This document shows, piece after piece, positions 1-37,853 of a stretch of DNA of 37,853 nucleotides (positions are counted from its first letter, which is position 1; every line of letters starts with the position of its first letter). Where the stretch lies: positions 1-37,853 of IMG/VR virus record IMGVR_UViG_3300031962_000111; one strand, given 5' to 3'. Under the pieces are notes generated by a model that had not been told where the DNA came from, ran no database searches, and worked only from the letters and a program-made list of their open reading frames with translations. A program made the position numbers and the translations under genes. Origin of the DNA: a virus.

Positions 1-402
1 GTCCGCGACCAAGTCGCCGCCCAAGTCGGCGACCAAGTCGACGCCCAAGTCCGCGACCAAGTCGCCGCCCAAGTCGCCGCCCAAGTCGGCGCCCAAGTCG
101 GCACCCAAGTCCGCGACCAAGTCCGCGACCAAGTCGCCGCCCAAGTCGCCGCCCAAGTCCGCGACCAAGTCGCCGCCCAAGTCGGCGACCAAGTCGACGC
201 CCAAGTCGGCGCCCAAGTCGGCGACCAAGTCCACGCCCAAGTCCGCGACCAAGTCGCCGCCCAAGTCAGCGACCAAGTCGCCGCCCAAGTCGGCACCCAA
301 GTCGCCGCCCAAGTCGGCGCCCAAGTCGGCACCCAAGTCAGCGACCAAGTCAGCGACCAAGTCCACGCCCAAGTCGACGCCCAAGTCCGCGACCAAGTCG
401 GC
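1..402 (+). repeat. 12-bp tandem array, left contig end (Val-x-x-Gln coding)
   Basis: About 33 perfect-length 12-bp units of the form GTC-NNN-NNC-CAA. The Val and Gln codons are invariant; codon 2 varies among CGC, GCC, GGC, GAC, AGC and CAC, and codon 3 among GAC, GCC and ACC. The array stays in frame with the gene that ends at 1146. Units from base 37 to 371 repeat the units at 37519-37853 in the same order. Confidence 0.97.
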
Positions 403-31002: not shown

Positions 31003-31735
31003 GGCCGTTTTCCTTTCCCATCTCCAGCATCCGGCGCTTGAACGCCTCGTCGGCCAGCGCCTTGCCTTTGGCGTTCGCACGATCGTCCTCGGGCAGCACC
31101 AGCGGTGCTACCGGGCGGCCCGCCACCATGCGCGTCGCGCTCTGGCGAGGCCTGCGCAGCCAGTTACGCCAAGCGGCCGACCAGTTCTTTTTGCTCGCGA
31201 CCTGCCCGGTTGCCGACCAAGCCCAATCCCGAAACGCCGGCCACTCTGAATGCGCCGTGTCGATGTTCCAACGGCGAGTGAACTCGGCCAGCTCGGCCTC
31301 ACCCTCCGGCATGCGACCCCCGCGCGACCCCTCTTTTGGGGTCGTTTTTGGGGTCGGTAAGAGGGTCAAAAGGGTCGTTTTGGGGTCGCGCGGGGTCGGC
31401 GCCGCGGCAGCGATCTCATTATCTCCGATCTTCTCTTCTCTTGTATCATGCTCTTTTTGCTGCTCTTTTTCTTCTCTGACAAACGGAGAGAGCACGAGAG
31501 AACCAGCGACCCCTGCTGCGGGGTCGTTTTGGGTCGTTTTGGGGTCGTTTTGGGGTCGCGCGGGGTCGCGCGGGGTCGCGCCGTTGGCCTTCCGACGTTC
31601 CCTCTTGAGGCGACACTTCTCGGCGTTGGAGAGCTTGCGAGGGGTTGTCGGATCGATCCCAGCAATCTCGAGAATTCGAGCGACAAGCTCAAGGGCCTCT
31701 TTGGCCAGGGCGATCCGGTCCCCGTCGAGACTCAC
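30995..31735 (-). CDS. Replication initiator / helicase-loader-like protein (DnaT/O-like C-terminus)
   Basis: 246 residues from a GTG at 31735 overlapping the HTH stop (GTGA). Residues 1-50: ALAKEALELVARILEIAG, then a basic segment SNAEKCRLKRERRKA. Residues about 50-160 are low-complexity (Pro, Thr, Asp, Lys), written over the iteron clusters at 31314-31398 and 31507-31578. The C-terminus has EFTRRWNIDTAHSEWPAFRDWAW and KKNWSAAWRNWLRRP, the W-x(n)-NWL pattern seen in DnaT and phage helicase-loader domains. An origin inside the disordered middle of a replication gene is the known lambda O arrangement. Function is inferred from that and from the tryptophan motif. Confidence 0.55.
   Translation of the reverse strand: MSLDGDRIALAKEALELVARILEIAGIDPTTPRKLSNAEKCRLKRERRKANGATPRDPARPQNDPKTTQNDPAAGVAGSLVLSPFVREEKEQQKEHDTREEKIGDNEIAAAAPTPRDPKTTLLTLLPTPKTTPKEGSRGGRMPEGEAELAEFTRRWNIDTAHSEWPAFRDWAWSATGQVASKKNWSAAWRNWLRRPRQSATRMVAGRPVAPLVLPEDDRANAKGKALADEAFKRRMLEMGKENGHG
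31314..31398. repeat. Iteron cluster A (GGGGTCG)
   Basis: GGGGTCG at 31338, 31350, 31382 and 31392, and AGGGTCG at 31371, with the inverted form CGACCCC at 31314 and 31325. Most spacings are 10-12 bp (one gap of 21), that is, about one helical turn. CGACCCC-N6-GGGGTCG (31325-31344) forms a perfect 7-bp inverted repeat. Confidence 0.85.
31415..31500. other. AT-rich stretch between the iteron clusters, candidate unwinding element
   Basis: Pyrimidine-rich and AT-richer than the GC-rich surroundings on the plus strand (runs such as CTCATTATCTCC and CTTTTTGCTGCTCTTTTTC). It lies exactly between two iteron clusters inside the replication-like gene. Together these would form a replication origin of lambda type. 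The role is inference. Confidence 0.5.
31507..31578. repeat. Iteron cluster B (GGGGTCG)
   Basis: GGGGTCG at 31520, 31541, 31552, 31562 and 31572, and TGGGTCG at 31530, with CGACCCC at 31507. Spacings are 10 or 11 bp throughout. CGACCCC-N6-GGGGTCG (31507-31526) mirrors the hairpin of cluster A. Confidence 0.9.
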
Positions 31736-34464: not shown

Positions 34465-35318
34465 CCGCTCAAACCTGCTCCGGAGAATGCAGCATGCTCG
34501 ACGTCGCCCCGGGCATCCACTACGAGATTCCCGCCGACGTCTATCACCGCAAGGTCAAGGGGTTGGTCAGCAAGGGCGCGCTCGACAGGTTCGCCCACGC
34601 GCCCGCCTCGTACCTGCACTGGTTGAGCGAAGAAGAGCGAGAGACGCCGGCGCTCATGTTCGGCCGAGCGTTTCACTGCGCCGTCTTGGAGCCCGACGAG
34701 TTCACCCGCCTTTGGGCCGTTGAGCCCGAATTCGGCGACTGTCGCAAGACCGAAAACAAAAAGCGCCGTGACGCGTGGCGTGCCGAGAACGCCAGCAAAG
34801 GCCACGTCTCGGCCGAGGATTGGGCGAGGGCCCTCGGGATGGCGGCCTCGCTTCGCCGACACGCGGTCATCGGGTCGTTACTGGCGCGCGGCCGCGCCGA
34901 GGTCACCGCACGCTGGCGAGACTCCGAGACGGGGCTGCAGGCAAAAGCGCGCGCCGACATTCACGCCGCCGAATGGCAGTCCATTCTTGACCTGAAAACG
35001 ACCGAGGATGCCCGCGCAGCGGCCTTCTCTCGCTCGTGCGAGCAGTACCGATACGACGGACAGGAGGCGCACTACGTGCGCGGCTTCGGTGCTCTTGATG
35101 CCCCAGTCGAGCATTTCGTTTTTGGAGTTTGCGAGAAAGACCCGCCGTACCTGTGCGCGGCCTACACGCTACATGCCGAGAGCGTGATGGAGGCCGATGC
35201 AATCAATCGCTCGCTCATGCGCCGGATGGCCGATTGCCTCGCGTCGGATTCGTGGCCTGGCTTGCAGGCCGAAATGCTGGAATTGCGCCTGAGAAAATGG
35301 CGTTTGGAGAACAAATGA
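34461..35318 (+). CDS. RecE/exonuclease-VIII-like PD-(D/E)XK nuclease
   Basis: 285 residues from the ATG at 34461 (ATGA overlap). A second good start is ATG 34494, with GGAG at 34482-34485 before it (274 residues). Motifs: PGIHYEIPADVYH at the start, RAFHCAVLEP near residue 70, the RecB-type nuclease sites GRAEVTARW (about 144-152), ARADIH and ILDLKTT (Asp-x-Lys near 177-179), then QYRYDGQEAHY. This is the fold of RecE and other lambda-type 5'-3' exonucleases used with an annealing protein, and the next gene is RecT-like. Resection of dsDNA ends for recombination is the known family role. Confidence 0.8.
   Translation: MTAQTCSGECSMLDVAPGIHYEIPADVYHRKVKGLVSKGALDRFAHAPASYLHWLSEEERETPALMFGRAFHCAVLEPDEFTRLWAVEPEFGDCRKTENKKRRDAWRAENASKGHVSAEDWARALGMAASLRRHAVIGSLLARGRAEVTARWRDSETGLQAKARADIHAAEWQSILDLKTTEDARAAAFSRSCEQYRYDGQEAHYVRGFGALDAPVEHFVFGVCEKDPPYLCAAYTLHAESVMEADAINRSLMRRMADCLASDSWPGLQAEMLELRLRKWRLENK
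34470..34490. repeat. 21-bp direct repeat, copy 2
   Basis: Second copy of the 34231-34251 element, in the same codon frame (QTCSGEC), within the first 10 codons of the exonuclease gene. Its GGAG serves as a Shine-Dalgarno for ATG 34494. Confidence 0.95.
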
Positions 35319-36376
35319 CGAATGCCGAGAAACCTGAAGACAAGCCCGCGGCGCTCGCAACGAAAGTGCCGGCGCCCCCCATCGAGACGGACAACGAAGA
35401 TCCGTCGAGGGCGCTGAACGCCTTTGCGAGTGCCGCCAATTTCTCGACGGCGCAGCGCATCGCTCACGCGCTCTCGCAATCGACGCTCGTCCCGAAGGAG
35501 TACCAGAACAACCTTCCGAACGTGCTGATCGCCATGGAGATCGCCTCGCGCATCGGCGCCAGCGTTTTCATGGTGATGCAACATCTCGACATCATCCATG
35601 GGCGCCCAAGCTGGCGCGCTATGTTTCTCATCGCGACCGTGAATGCTTCGCAGCGCTTCACGCCGCTGCGCTTTCGGTGGGAGGGTAAGCGCGGCGAAGA
35701 CACGTGGGGATGCCGCGCGGTCGCGAAAGACCGCGAAAGCGGGGAAGAGTGCGTAGGCGCGCTCGTCTCATGGGCGATGGTCAACGCGGAGGGGTGGTCC
35801 ACCAAGAGCGGCTCCAAGTGGATGACGATGCCAGAGCAAATGTTCCTGTATCGCGCGGCCGCGTTTTGGACGCGCGTTTACTCGCCCGAGCTCTCGCTTG
35901 GAATGCAGACGAGCGAAGAGACCGTCGACGCGTTGCCTCCTCTCGAAATCGCGCCAGTGCGAAGCCTAGAAGAGAAGATCGCGGCCTCCAAATTGGAACC
36001 GACGCCAGAGCCCGAGAAGCCAAAGCCGGGGCTTTCAAAGGCCAAGGCGCGCGTGGCGGATGCCGAGCTGAAGGCGAAGGCCGACGCAGCCAAGGCAGAA
36101 GTGAAACCGGGCGACGCTCTCTTTGGCGCCGAGCAGGGCGGACGCGCGCCGATCGATCCCGTGCCCGATATCGGCAAGCCCAAGCCCGAGACCGGGACGC
36201 GTCGACGAACCGCGCCCGCCGGCGCCGCCGAGGCCTGCATGATCTGCAAAAAGACCATCGTCGGGCACTTCGTCGAGACGACGAGCCCGGACGGCGAAGT
36301 GGGTCGCCGTCACCACGCATGCGCTTGGCCGAAAGGCGACGATGGCGGAGCGGACGATCCAGATCAGGGGCCGTGA
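35315..36376 (+). CDS. RecT-like single-strand annealing protein
   Basis: 353 residues, ATG 35315 (ATGA overlap with the exonuclease). The core (about 45-220) follows the RecT pattern: SQSTLVPKEY, NVLIAMEIASRIG, VMQHLDIIHGRPSWRAMFLIATVN, then GALVSWAMVNAEGW, KWMTMPEQMFLYRAAAFW and SPELSLGMQTSEE. Such proteins anneal single strands made by the paired exonuclease. The C-terminal third is Pro/Lys/Ala-rich and ends in a small Cys/His motif (CMICKK, HHAC) that may bind zinc, an addition not usual for RecT. Family known; the zinc tail is what I see. Confidence 0.76.
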   Translation: MTNAEKPEDKPAALATKVPAPPIETDNEDPSRALNAFASAANFSTAQRIAHALSQSTLVPKEYQNNLPNVLIAMEIASRIGASVFMVMQHLDIIHGRPSWRAMFLIATVNASQRFTPLRFRWEGKRGEDTWGCRAVAKDRESGEECVGALVSWAMVNAEGWSTKSGSKWMTMPEQMFLYRAAAFWTRVYSPELSLGMQTSEETVDALPPLEIAPVRSLEEKIAASKLEPTPEPEKPKPGLSKAKARVADAELKAKADAAKAEVKPGDALFGAEQGGRAPIDPVPDIGKPKPETGTRRRTAPAGAAEACMICKKTIVGHFVETTSPDGEVGRRHHACAWPKGDDGGADDPDQGP

Positions 36377-36807: not shown

Positions 36808-37853
36808 ATGACCAATCGCATTGACAGCCTGACGCCGGAGCAGTCGACCCGCATGTCGGAGTGGGCGAAGAAATGGATCGACATTGGGCTACAGATCGCG
36901 CCAGCGGAGCGGCCCACATTCGAGAAGCATGCGCGCGCGTGTTACGCGCTATCTGGCCTGCCAGAACCAACGATTGCGTGGGCCAACTCACCACTGGTCA
37001 CAGTGCTGGCAGGGCCAATTGCTGCGCTGATCCTCAAACGTGGGCCGCTCTACGTCGAGGCCATTCGGCGCGCACTTGCGCGCATTCCCGGCGAAACTCA
37101 GGACGAGACCATTCGTGTCGTTCGCGAAGCTATCTCCGCCGCCCAAGTCCGCGCCCAAGTCCGCGCCCAAGTCGCCGCCCAAGTCAGCGACCAAGTCCAC
37201 GCCCAAGTCGGCGCCCAAGTCCGCGACCAAGTCGCCGCCCAAGTCGGCGACCAAGTCGCCGCCCAAGTCGGCGACCAAGTCGCCGCCCAAGTCGGCGACC
37301 AAGTCGACGCCCAAGTCGGCGCCCAAGTCGCCGCCCAAGTCCACGCCCAAGTCCGCGACCAAGTCGCCGCCCAAGTCCGCGACCAAGTCGCCGCCCAAGT
37401 CGGCGACCAAGTCGACGCCCAAGTCGGCGCCCAAGTCGCCGCCCAAGTCCACGCCCAAGTCCGCGACCAAGTCGGCACCCAAGTCAGCGACCAAGTCAGC
37501 GACCAAGTCCACGCCCAAGTCGACGCCCAAGTCCGCGACCAAGTCGCCGCCCAAGTCGCCGCCCAAGTCGGCGCCCAAGTCGGCACCCAAGTCCGCGACC
37601 AAGTCCGCGACCAAGTCGCCGCCCAAGTCGCCGCCCAAGTCCGCGACCAAGTCGCCGCCCAAGTCGGCGACCAAGTCGACGCCCAAGTCGGCGCCCAAGT
37701 CGGCGACCAAGTCCACGCCCAAGTCCGCGACCAAGTCGCCGCCCAAGTCAGCGACCAAGTCGCCGCCCAAGTCGGCACCCAAGTCGCCGCCCAAGTCGGC
37801 GCCCAAGTCGGCACCCAAGTCAGCGACCAAGTCAGCGACAAAGTCCACGCCCA
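36808..37853 (+). CDS. DUF6745-like repeat protein, N-terminal part (continues at 1-1146)
   Basis: ATG 36808; the frame is open to the contig end (346 complete codons before the end). Residues 1-111 are unique: SLTPEQSTRMSEWAKKWIDIGL, FEKHARACYALSGLPEPTIAW, LVTVLAGPIAALIL and a helix before the array. This matches my recall of the DUF6745 N-terminus (acidic start, W-x-x-x-W-x-x-I/L-GL, AGLP, a hydrophobic helix), and proteins of this type do carry tetrapeptide-like repeats. From 37141 the gene is the Val-x-x-Gln array. The matching C-terminus is at 1-1146. Role unknown. The GTC/CAA repeat may form a long helix. Confidence 0.85.
   Translation, partial: MTNRIDSLTPEQSTRMSEWAKKWIDIGLQIAPAERPTFEKHARACYALSGLPEPTIAWANSPLVTVLAGPIAALILKRGPLYVEAIRRALARIPGETQDETIRVVREAISAAQVRAQVRAQVAAQVSDQVHAQVGAQVRDQVAAQVGDQVAAQVGDQVAAQVGDQVDAQVGAQVAAQVHAQVRDQVAAQVRDQVAAQVGDQVDAQVGAQVAAQVHAQVRDQVGTQVSDQVSDQVHAQVDAQVRDQVAAQVAAQVGAQVGTQVRDQVRDQVAAQVAAQVRDQVAAQVGDQVDAQVGAQVGDQVHAQVRDQVAAQVSDQVAAQVGTQVAAQVGAQVGTQVSDQVSDKVHA
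37141..37853 (+). repeat. 12-bp tandem array, right contig end (Val-x-x-Gln coding)
   Basis: About 59 units of GTC-NNN-NNC-CAA on from 37147. Higher-order copies exist: a block of about 8 units starting GTC-GAC-GCC-CAA at 37303 recurs at 37411 with small changes. One substitution breaks the Gln codon at 37840 (CAA to AAA). The last 28 units repeat bases 37-371. Confidence 0.97.
37519..37853. repeat. Terminal redundancy of the contig (right copy)
   Basis: Matches 37-371 at offset 37,482 with a single mismatch. The upstream units (37483-37518) do not match 1-36, so the overlap is not perfect to the very end of the contig. Confidence 0.8.

Follow-up and report, generated by a model that had tools for sequence, protein, structure and literature searches.

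A probable phage replication origin formed by two iteron arrays in the linker of its putative initiator gene

Introduction

What is the function of two clusters of the heptamer GGGGTCG and its complement CGACCCC that lie within one gene of a virus? The DNA analysed here (the window, i.e. the whole stretch under study) consists of one virus record, 37,853 bp in length. An earlier note on its sequence had proposed that the clusters and the stretch between them are a replication origin arranged as in the lambda O gene. Here we describe the layout of the repeats, the gene that carries them and the occurrence of similar arrays in related and unrelated genes, and weigh the origin against other readings of the same DNA.

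The two ends of the window (1-371 and 37483-37853) match each other over 371 bp with 97.8% identity, within a 12-bp/108-bp tandem repeat array that is spanned by an ORF of VADLGGDLGADLG-type repeats at 36988-37848. Though classed as linear, the record may represent an almost complete genome that is circular or terminally redundant; a periodic array can mimic such an overlap. Rfam and tRNA searches of the window found nothing.

Results

Layout of the repeat region

Exact sites of GGGGTCG or CGACCCC number 16 in the whole window, 12 of which lie within the 265 bp from 31314 to 31578 (Table 1). These repeats are real and far above chance, the best heptamer of the 741-nt putative initiator gene being present in 12 copies, whereas 1000 synonymous-codon shuffles never gave more than 7 and 1000 dinucleotide shuffles never more than 4. 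Both clusters are composed of CGACCCC, a 6-nt spacer and then six direct GGGGTCG-type sites each, 9-12 bp apart (3 imperfect copies included), which is close to one helical turn. The inverted pair CGACCCC-N6-GGGGTCG described in the earlier note, together with its series of direct sites, is indeed present in each cluster (31325-31344 and 31507-31526), and one additional CGACCCC is found in cluster A at 31314. The clusters also match each other as proposed, sharing an identical segment of 27 nt (31372-31398 = 31542-31568) and a 28-nt match (31324-31351 / 31506-31533). Both shared segments are direct repeats and the clusters have one polarity, so the mirrored layout that had been suggested for them has to be given up.

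Copies of the repeat occupy all three reading frames, and the argument that conservation acts at the level of the DNA rather than of the protein therefore holds. Since no frame of GGGGTCG or of CGACCCC contains a stop codon, arrays could grow or shift within a flexible linker at small cost to the protein. Counted from the start of the gene, cluster B begins with nt 158. Between the clusters, the AT-richer stretch noticed earlier is borne out by the 100-mer at 31406, whose GC content of 45% is the joint lowest in the window; in 1-kb steps, the GC fraction of the window is approximately 0.58-0.72. GC skew computed on the window had no clear switch at the repeat region.

Table 1. Positions of the repeat arrays and of the genes and protein elements around them.
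Feature	Position	Strand	Description
Replication initiator ORF (most likely), 246 aa	30995..31735	-	GTG start at 31735; phrog_1408 match
C-terminal DnaT-like domain of initiator	31118..31315	-	F.D...G...K..W...WRNW.R; six-initiator profile match
Iteron cluster A (3' in gene)	31314..31398	.	two CGACCCC followed by six GGGGTCG-type sites, two of which are imperfect, 9-12 bp
Cluster A direct sites	31338, 31350, 31362, 31371, 31382, 31392		31362 is AGGGTCA; 31371 is AGGGTCG
AT-rich centre, candidate unwinding element	31406..31505	.	45% GC; coding strand purine-rich
Iteron cluster B (5' in gene)	31507..31578	.	CGACCCC-N6, then six GGGGTCG-type sites, 10-11 bp
Cluster B direct sites	31520, 31530, 31541, 31552, 31562, 31572		31530 is TGGGTCG
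Basic helix SNAEKCRLKRERRK, candidate iteron-binding element	31586..31630	-	AAERQARYRAKKK-type helices of L229, L234 and L282 align here
Small winged-HTH ORF, 70 aa	31732..31944	-	upstream of initiator; 4-nt overlap with its start

The gene that carries the repeats

The 246-aa product of the gene matched phrog_1408 (replication initiation protein) with E=6e-7 over residues 36-206, the match being limited to profile positions 103-264. Its second and third PHROG matches were phrog_3992 (primosomal protein; E=0.015) and phrog_15643 (E=0.18), and phrog_277, the lambda-type family, was not among the matches along the rest of the protein. Searched against Pfam, it had no match at E 0.1, whether to an N-terminal domain or to DnaT (PF17948). 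Its C-terminal 60-70 residues carry the F-D-G-K-W-WRNW-R pattern common to the initiators of mycobacteriophages, Pam5, Bcep176 and DinoDaryn. A profile of six initiators matched this domain with E=1e-22, the window itself being one of the six rows. By its C-terminal domain (F.D...G....K..W...WRNW.R) the protein belongs to the phrog_1408 group; it shows no match to an N-terminal winged helix-turn-helix (wHTH) as in Brujita or Pam5 and aligns instead with a subgroup characterized by a basic helix. Brujita and DinoDaryn match Pfam DnaT PF17948 weakly, under the curated cut-off (E=5e-4 for the C-terminal domain of DinoDaryn). A sequence search of the PDB with the C-terminal domain profile matched no solved structure.

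An AlphaFold model built from the single sequence was poor (mean pLDDT 58); it placed helices at residues 3-24, 37-50 and 144-194, the second of them at the basic helix SNAEKCRLKRERRK, and left residues 51-143 without structure. All arrays fall within this linker, which the low-confidence model predicts to be disordered, in agreement with the earlier placement of the repeats in a disordered part of the initiator. Comparison of the model with PDB structures gave Z values of at most 3.4, which are not meaningful. Judged from sequence, the 246-aa ORF most likely encodes the replication initiator.

Iteron arrays in related genes

Searches of viral_contigs and genome_contigs with the whole 246-aa protein returned no close relatives, and none near enough to compare exact sites. 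The one relative found by TerL (L122) is a record that begins at TerL, without the initiator region. Several of the RecT relatives carry phrog_1408 initiators. Each of two profile scans with the C-terminal domain added 80 loci. Six initiator-like ORFs from IMG/VR (L229, L230, L234, L282, L290 and L266) could be aligned to the window protein over their whole length with 25-31% identity, and all follow the same architecture of short N-terminal helices, a basic helix, a linker and the same C-terminal, DnaT-like domain.

To evaluate arrays across genes, exact 6- and 7-mers of both strands with a spacing of 9-13 or 19-24 bp were scored against synonymous-codon shuffles of the same gene. This iteron test was positive for 37 of 94 deduplicated IMG/VR genes with the C-terminal domain (37/80 in the first scan), versus 2 of 59 control ORFs taken from these loci and from the window. 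One of these two controls, L247 272-1051, has five CGTTAC sites and is possibly an initiator gene in its own right. The positive controls, lambda O and P22 gene 18, passed the test, and lambda P failed. By this strict exact-match measure, no array is seen in approximately 60% of the domain-bearing genes. The lowest-GC 60-mer lay in the iterons, or within 150 nt 3' of them, in 27 of 35 iteron-positive genes (per-gene chance 0.22-0.60).

Among the six full-length relatives, only the arrays of L282, L266 and L230 passed the shuffle test alone. L282 has CGGGACA four times at 11 bp (nt 158-191; p <=0.02), beginning where the first array of the window (B) begins, and L229 has three CGTTAC sites of similar look at nt 160-185 that are not significant alone. 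These relatives differ from the window in that a single short array, built of other letters, lies in a shorter linker without a second array. The linker of the window is about 50 codons longer than that of most of them, and the extra part corresponds to the AT-rich stretch together with the second array (A). An insertion would be the simplest account of this segment, the alignment of the linkers being loose.

In 19 of 105 initiator genes, two arrays built of the same 6-mer were detected at a distance of 70-260 bp from each other, as compared to 1.8 genes expected. Fewer than 19 of these are independent, since Brujita is counted twice (L308 is the same phage), L231 and L232 seem almost the same, and some of the named phages were picked after Brujita had shown paired arrays. 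Examples are Brujita, Dolores, Redi, Polly, G004 and G011. One open-access library yielded no published description of paired arrays in such initiator genes. As a separate observation, purine-rich repeats (GGGAACA, GGGAA) follow the second iteron array in L205 (2364-2400) and also in L199, L198, L215 and L211, and encode GKGREGKG-type linkers in L199 and L198; they are possibly a second origin element.

The same heptamer in other viruses

Near-identical letters recur within the linker of genes with this C-terminal domain in two unrelated phages, which favours an origin. In Pseudanabaena phage Pam5 (ON014757), the linker of such a gene holds GGGGTCA sites. The gene (34535-35338; L224 1087-1890), which is absent from the record annotation, differs from that of the window by an HTH_36 N-terminal domain and by a single array built of inverted 19-bp dyads. 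A second case is L156 (IMGVR 3300021426_000155), where an initiator-like ORF with a weak C-terminal domain match (E=1.5e-4) has GGGGTCG spaced at 11 bp in its linker; it differs in its N-terminal domain and has a single array, and was found by DNA pattern and thus chosen for its letters. Searching by DNA pattern also yielded two more initiator-like ORFs, L172 3339-4208 and L149 3-443, both from high-GC viruses, whose low-complexity linker holds CGACCCC arrays.

In viral contigs as a whole, GGGGTCG arrays at 10-11 bp occurred in 60 stretches, versus 16 for a single control motif matched in composition. Most of the 60 came from one AT-rich, probably marine group, often as mirrored arrays outside long ORFs, and several other matches were simple repeats. 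In L046, L118, L140, L151, L168 and others, GGGGTCG at 11 bp, often mirrored, is located between the genes for an exonuclease and the terminase small subunit, where it is a candidate origin or packaging site. The C-terminal domain was found in L156 only among the 16 array-bearing records searched, many of them fragments. Outside L156, the shared heptamer is probably due to convergence, and in part an effect of searching by letters; given that the domain is absent from the searched AT-rich contigs and that the letters were the search key, we claim no common descent.

The adjacent HTH gene and alternative readings

The 70-aa ORF that precedes the initiator gene matched phrog_57 (terminase small subunit) with E=1e-4 and phrog_539 (excisionase) with 2e-4. 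Under the respective cut-offs, it also matched Pfam HTH_17 (E=0.002) and lambda O PF04492 (E=0.08). Fold matches of its model were to generic winged helices only, including SmtB, RdfS and BldC. The protein is a possible accessory DNA-binding protein.

TerS of SPP1 binds two sites around its cut. The arrays could by analogy form a pac site, both being bound by a TerS-like HTH protein, with cleavage by the terminase nearby; the weak phrog_57 match points in this direction, as does the TerS gene found a few hundred bases from mirrored GGGGTCG arrays in the viral contigs. The arrays are, however, inside a gene that matches replication initiation proteins, about 3.8 kb from TerL, the excisionase match of the HTH protein is equally good, and, for the initiator-like protein, genes sharing its C-terminal domain repeatedly carry iteron arrays in very different phages. 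We consider a pac site improbable, and less likely than an origin.

The arrays might alternatively be nothing but an operator, through which the 70-aa HTH protein regulates its own expression. The HTH gene is adjacent and overlapping, the direct repeats are phased, and BldC, one of the weak fold matches, binds direct repeats of DNA as cooperative multimers according to PMC5859096. Against this stand the position of the sites, some 150-420 nt into the gene with no promoter-like site found near, and the AT-rich centre and the recurrence of arrays in initiator linkers, which favour an origin. An operator without origin function thus appears quite unlikely, while the two roles are not mutually exclusive.

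Also less likely than an origin, and very improbable in our view, is a G-quadruplex, in which four-base G runs would fold on the plus strand and serve as the signal through this fold rather than through a protein code: the only G4+ pattern of the window is in cluster B and both arrays fit a G3+ pattern, yet neither the TCG after the G runs nor the inverted CGACCCC is needed for a quadruplex, and many arrays of relatives (TCGCGA, ACGCGT, TCGACGA) lack such runs. Equally hard to sustain, and again less likely than an origin, is a low-complexity linker expanded by slippage without function at the DNA level, as its predicted disorder and the duplication suggested by the identical 27-nt segment would allow, for the unit length is not a multiple of 3, all frames are used, inverted copies are present and synonymous shuffles never attain the observed count.

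Discussion

We conclude, with a probability of roughly 0.8, that the repeat region is a phage replication origin located within the linker region of its own initiator gene. This reading, already put forward in the earlier note for the iterons and the AT-rich stretch, is well supported because the ORF matches a replication initiation family, the linker over the repeats is predicted to be disordered, and genes sharing the C-terminal domain carry arrays far above controls.

The likeness to lambda drawn at the outset stands as a way of working and falls as a family relation. As in the lambda ori within gene O (L309; PMC7466680), iterons and an adjoining AT-rich tract lie in the middle of an initiator gene, and a tract rich in A and G on the coding strand follows the lambda iterons, similar to the centre of the window. 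In lambda, four 18-bp iterons are annotated in a single row and the AT tract lies to one side of them, whereas in the window two direct arrays of 7-bp sites flank the tract. The N-terminal Phage_rep_O domain (PF04492), matched by lambda O itself with 6e-36, was not found in the 246-aa protein. The best reading of the window is thus a two-array variant of the lambda ori/O way of working, outside the lambda O family.

Paired arrays of a single motif within an initiator gene are also present in mycobacteriophage Brujita (gp63) and in Dolores, Redi, Polly and Xeno, all of the phrog_1408 group and with a C-terminal domain of the same kind. Their arrays are approximately 190-240 bp apart (start to start). 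They differ from the window in their TCGCGA/CGCGAA-type sites, in that the first array is within the wHTH codons, and in a low-GC tract that is not consistently between the arrays.

From these comparisons we infer how such an origin would be used. Several copies of the initiator may bind the phased sites via the basic N-terminal helix, or with the help of the 70-aa wHTH protein, forming one nucleoprotein complex per array. The complexes would strain the AT-rich DNA between the arrays until it opens, and the DnaT-like domains could then recruit the replicative helicase of the host. For the protein that reads GGGGTCG, the basic helix of the 246-aa protein would be our first choice and the 70-aa wHTH protein our second. 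Joint action of both arrays would be an extension of this scheme. We offer only tentatively the broader idea that two-array origins in initiator genes are a widespread and undescribed phage design, with a complex on each array, opening between them and one helicase loaded on each side, and that the phage of the window gained its second array and AT-rich tract by insertion into the linker.

Few phage origins have been mapped. A test for arrays at helical spacing in genes with the DnaT-like domain flags candidates in dozens of phages, including those of Mycobacterium, Gordonia and Pseudanabaena, and with the excess of genes carrying paired arrays, the opening of DNA between two phage initiator complexes becomes testable.
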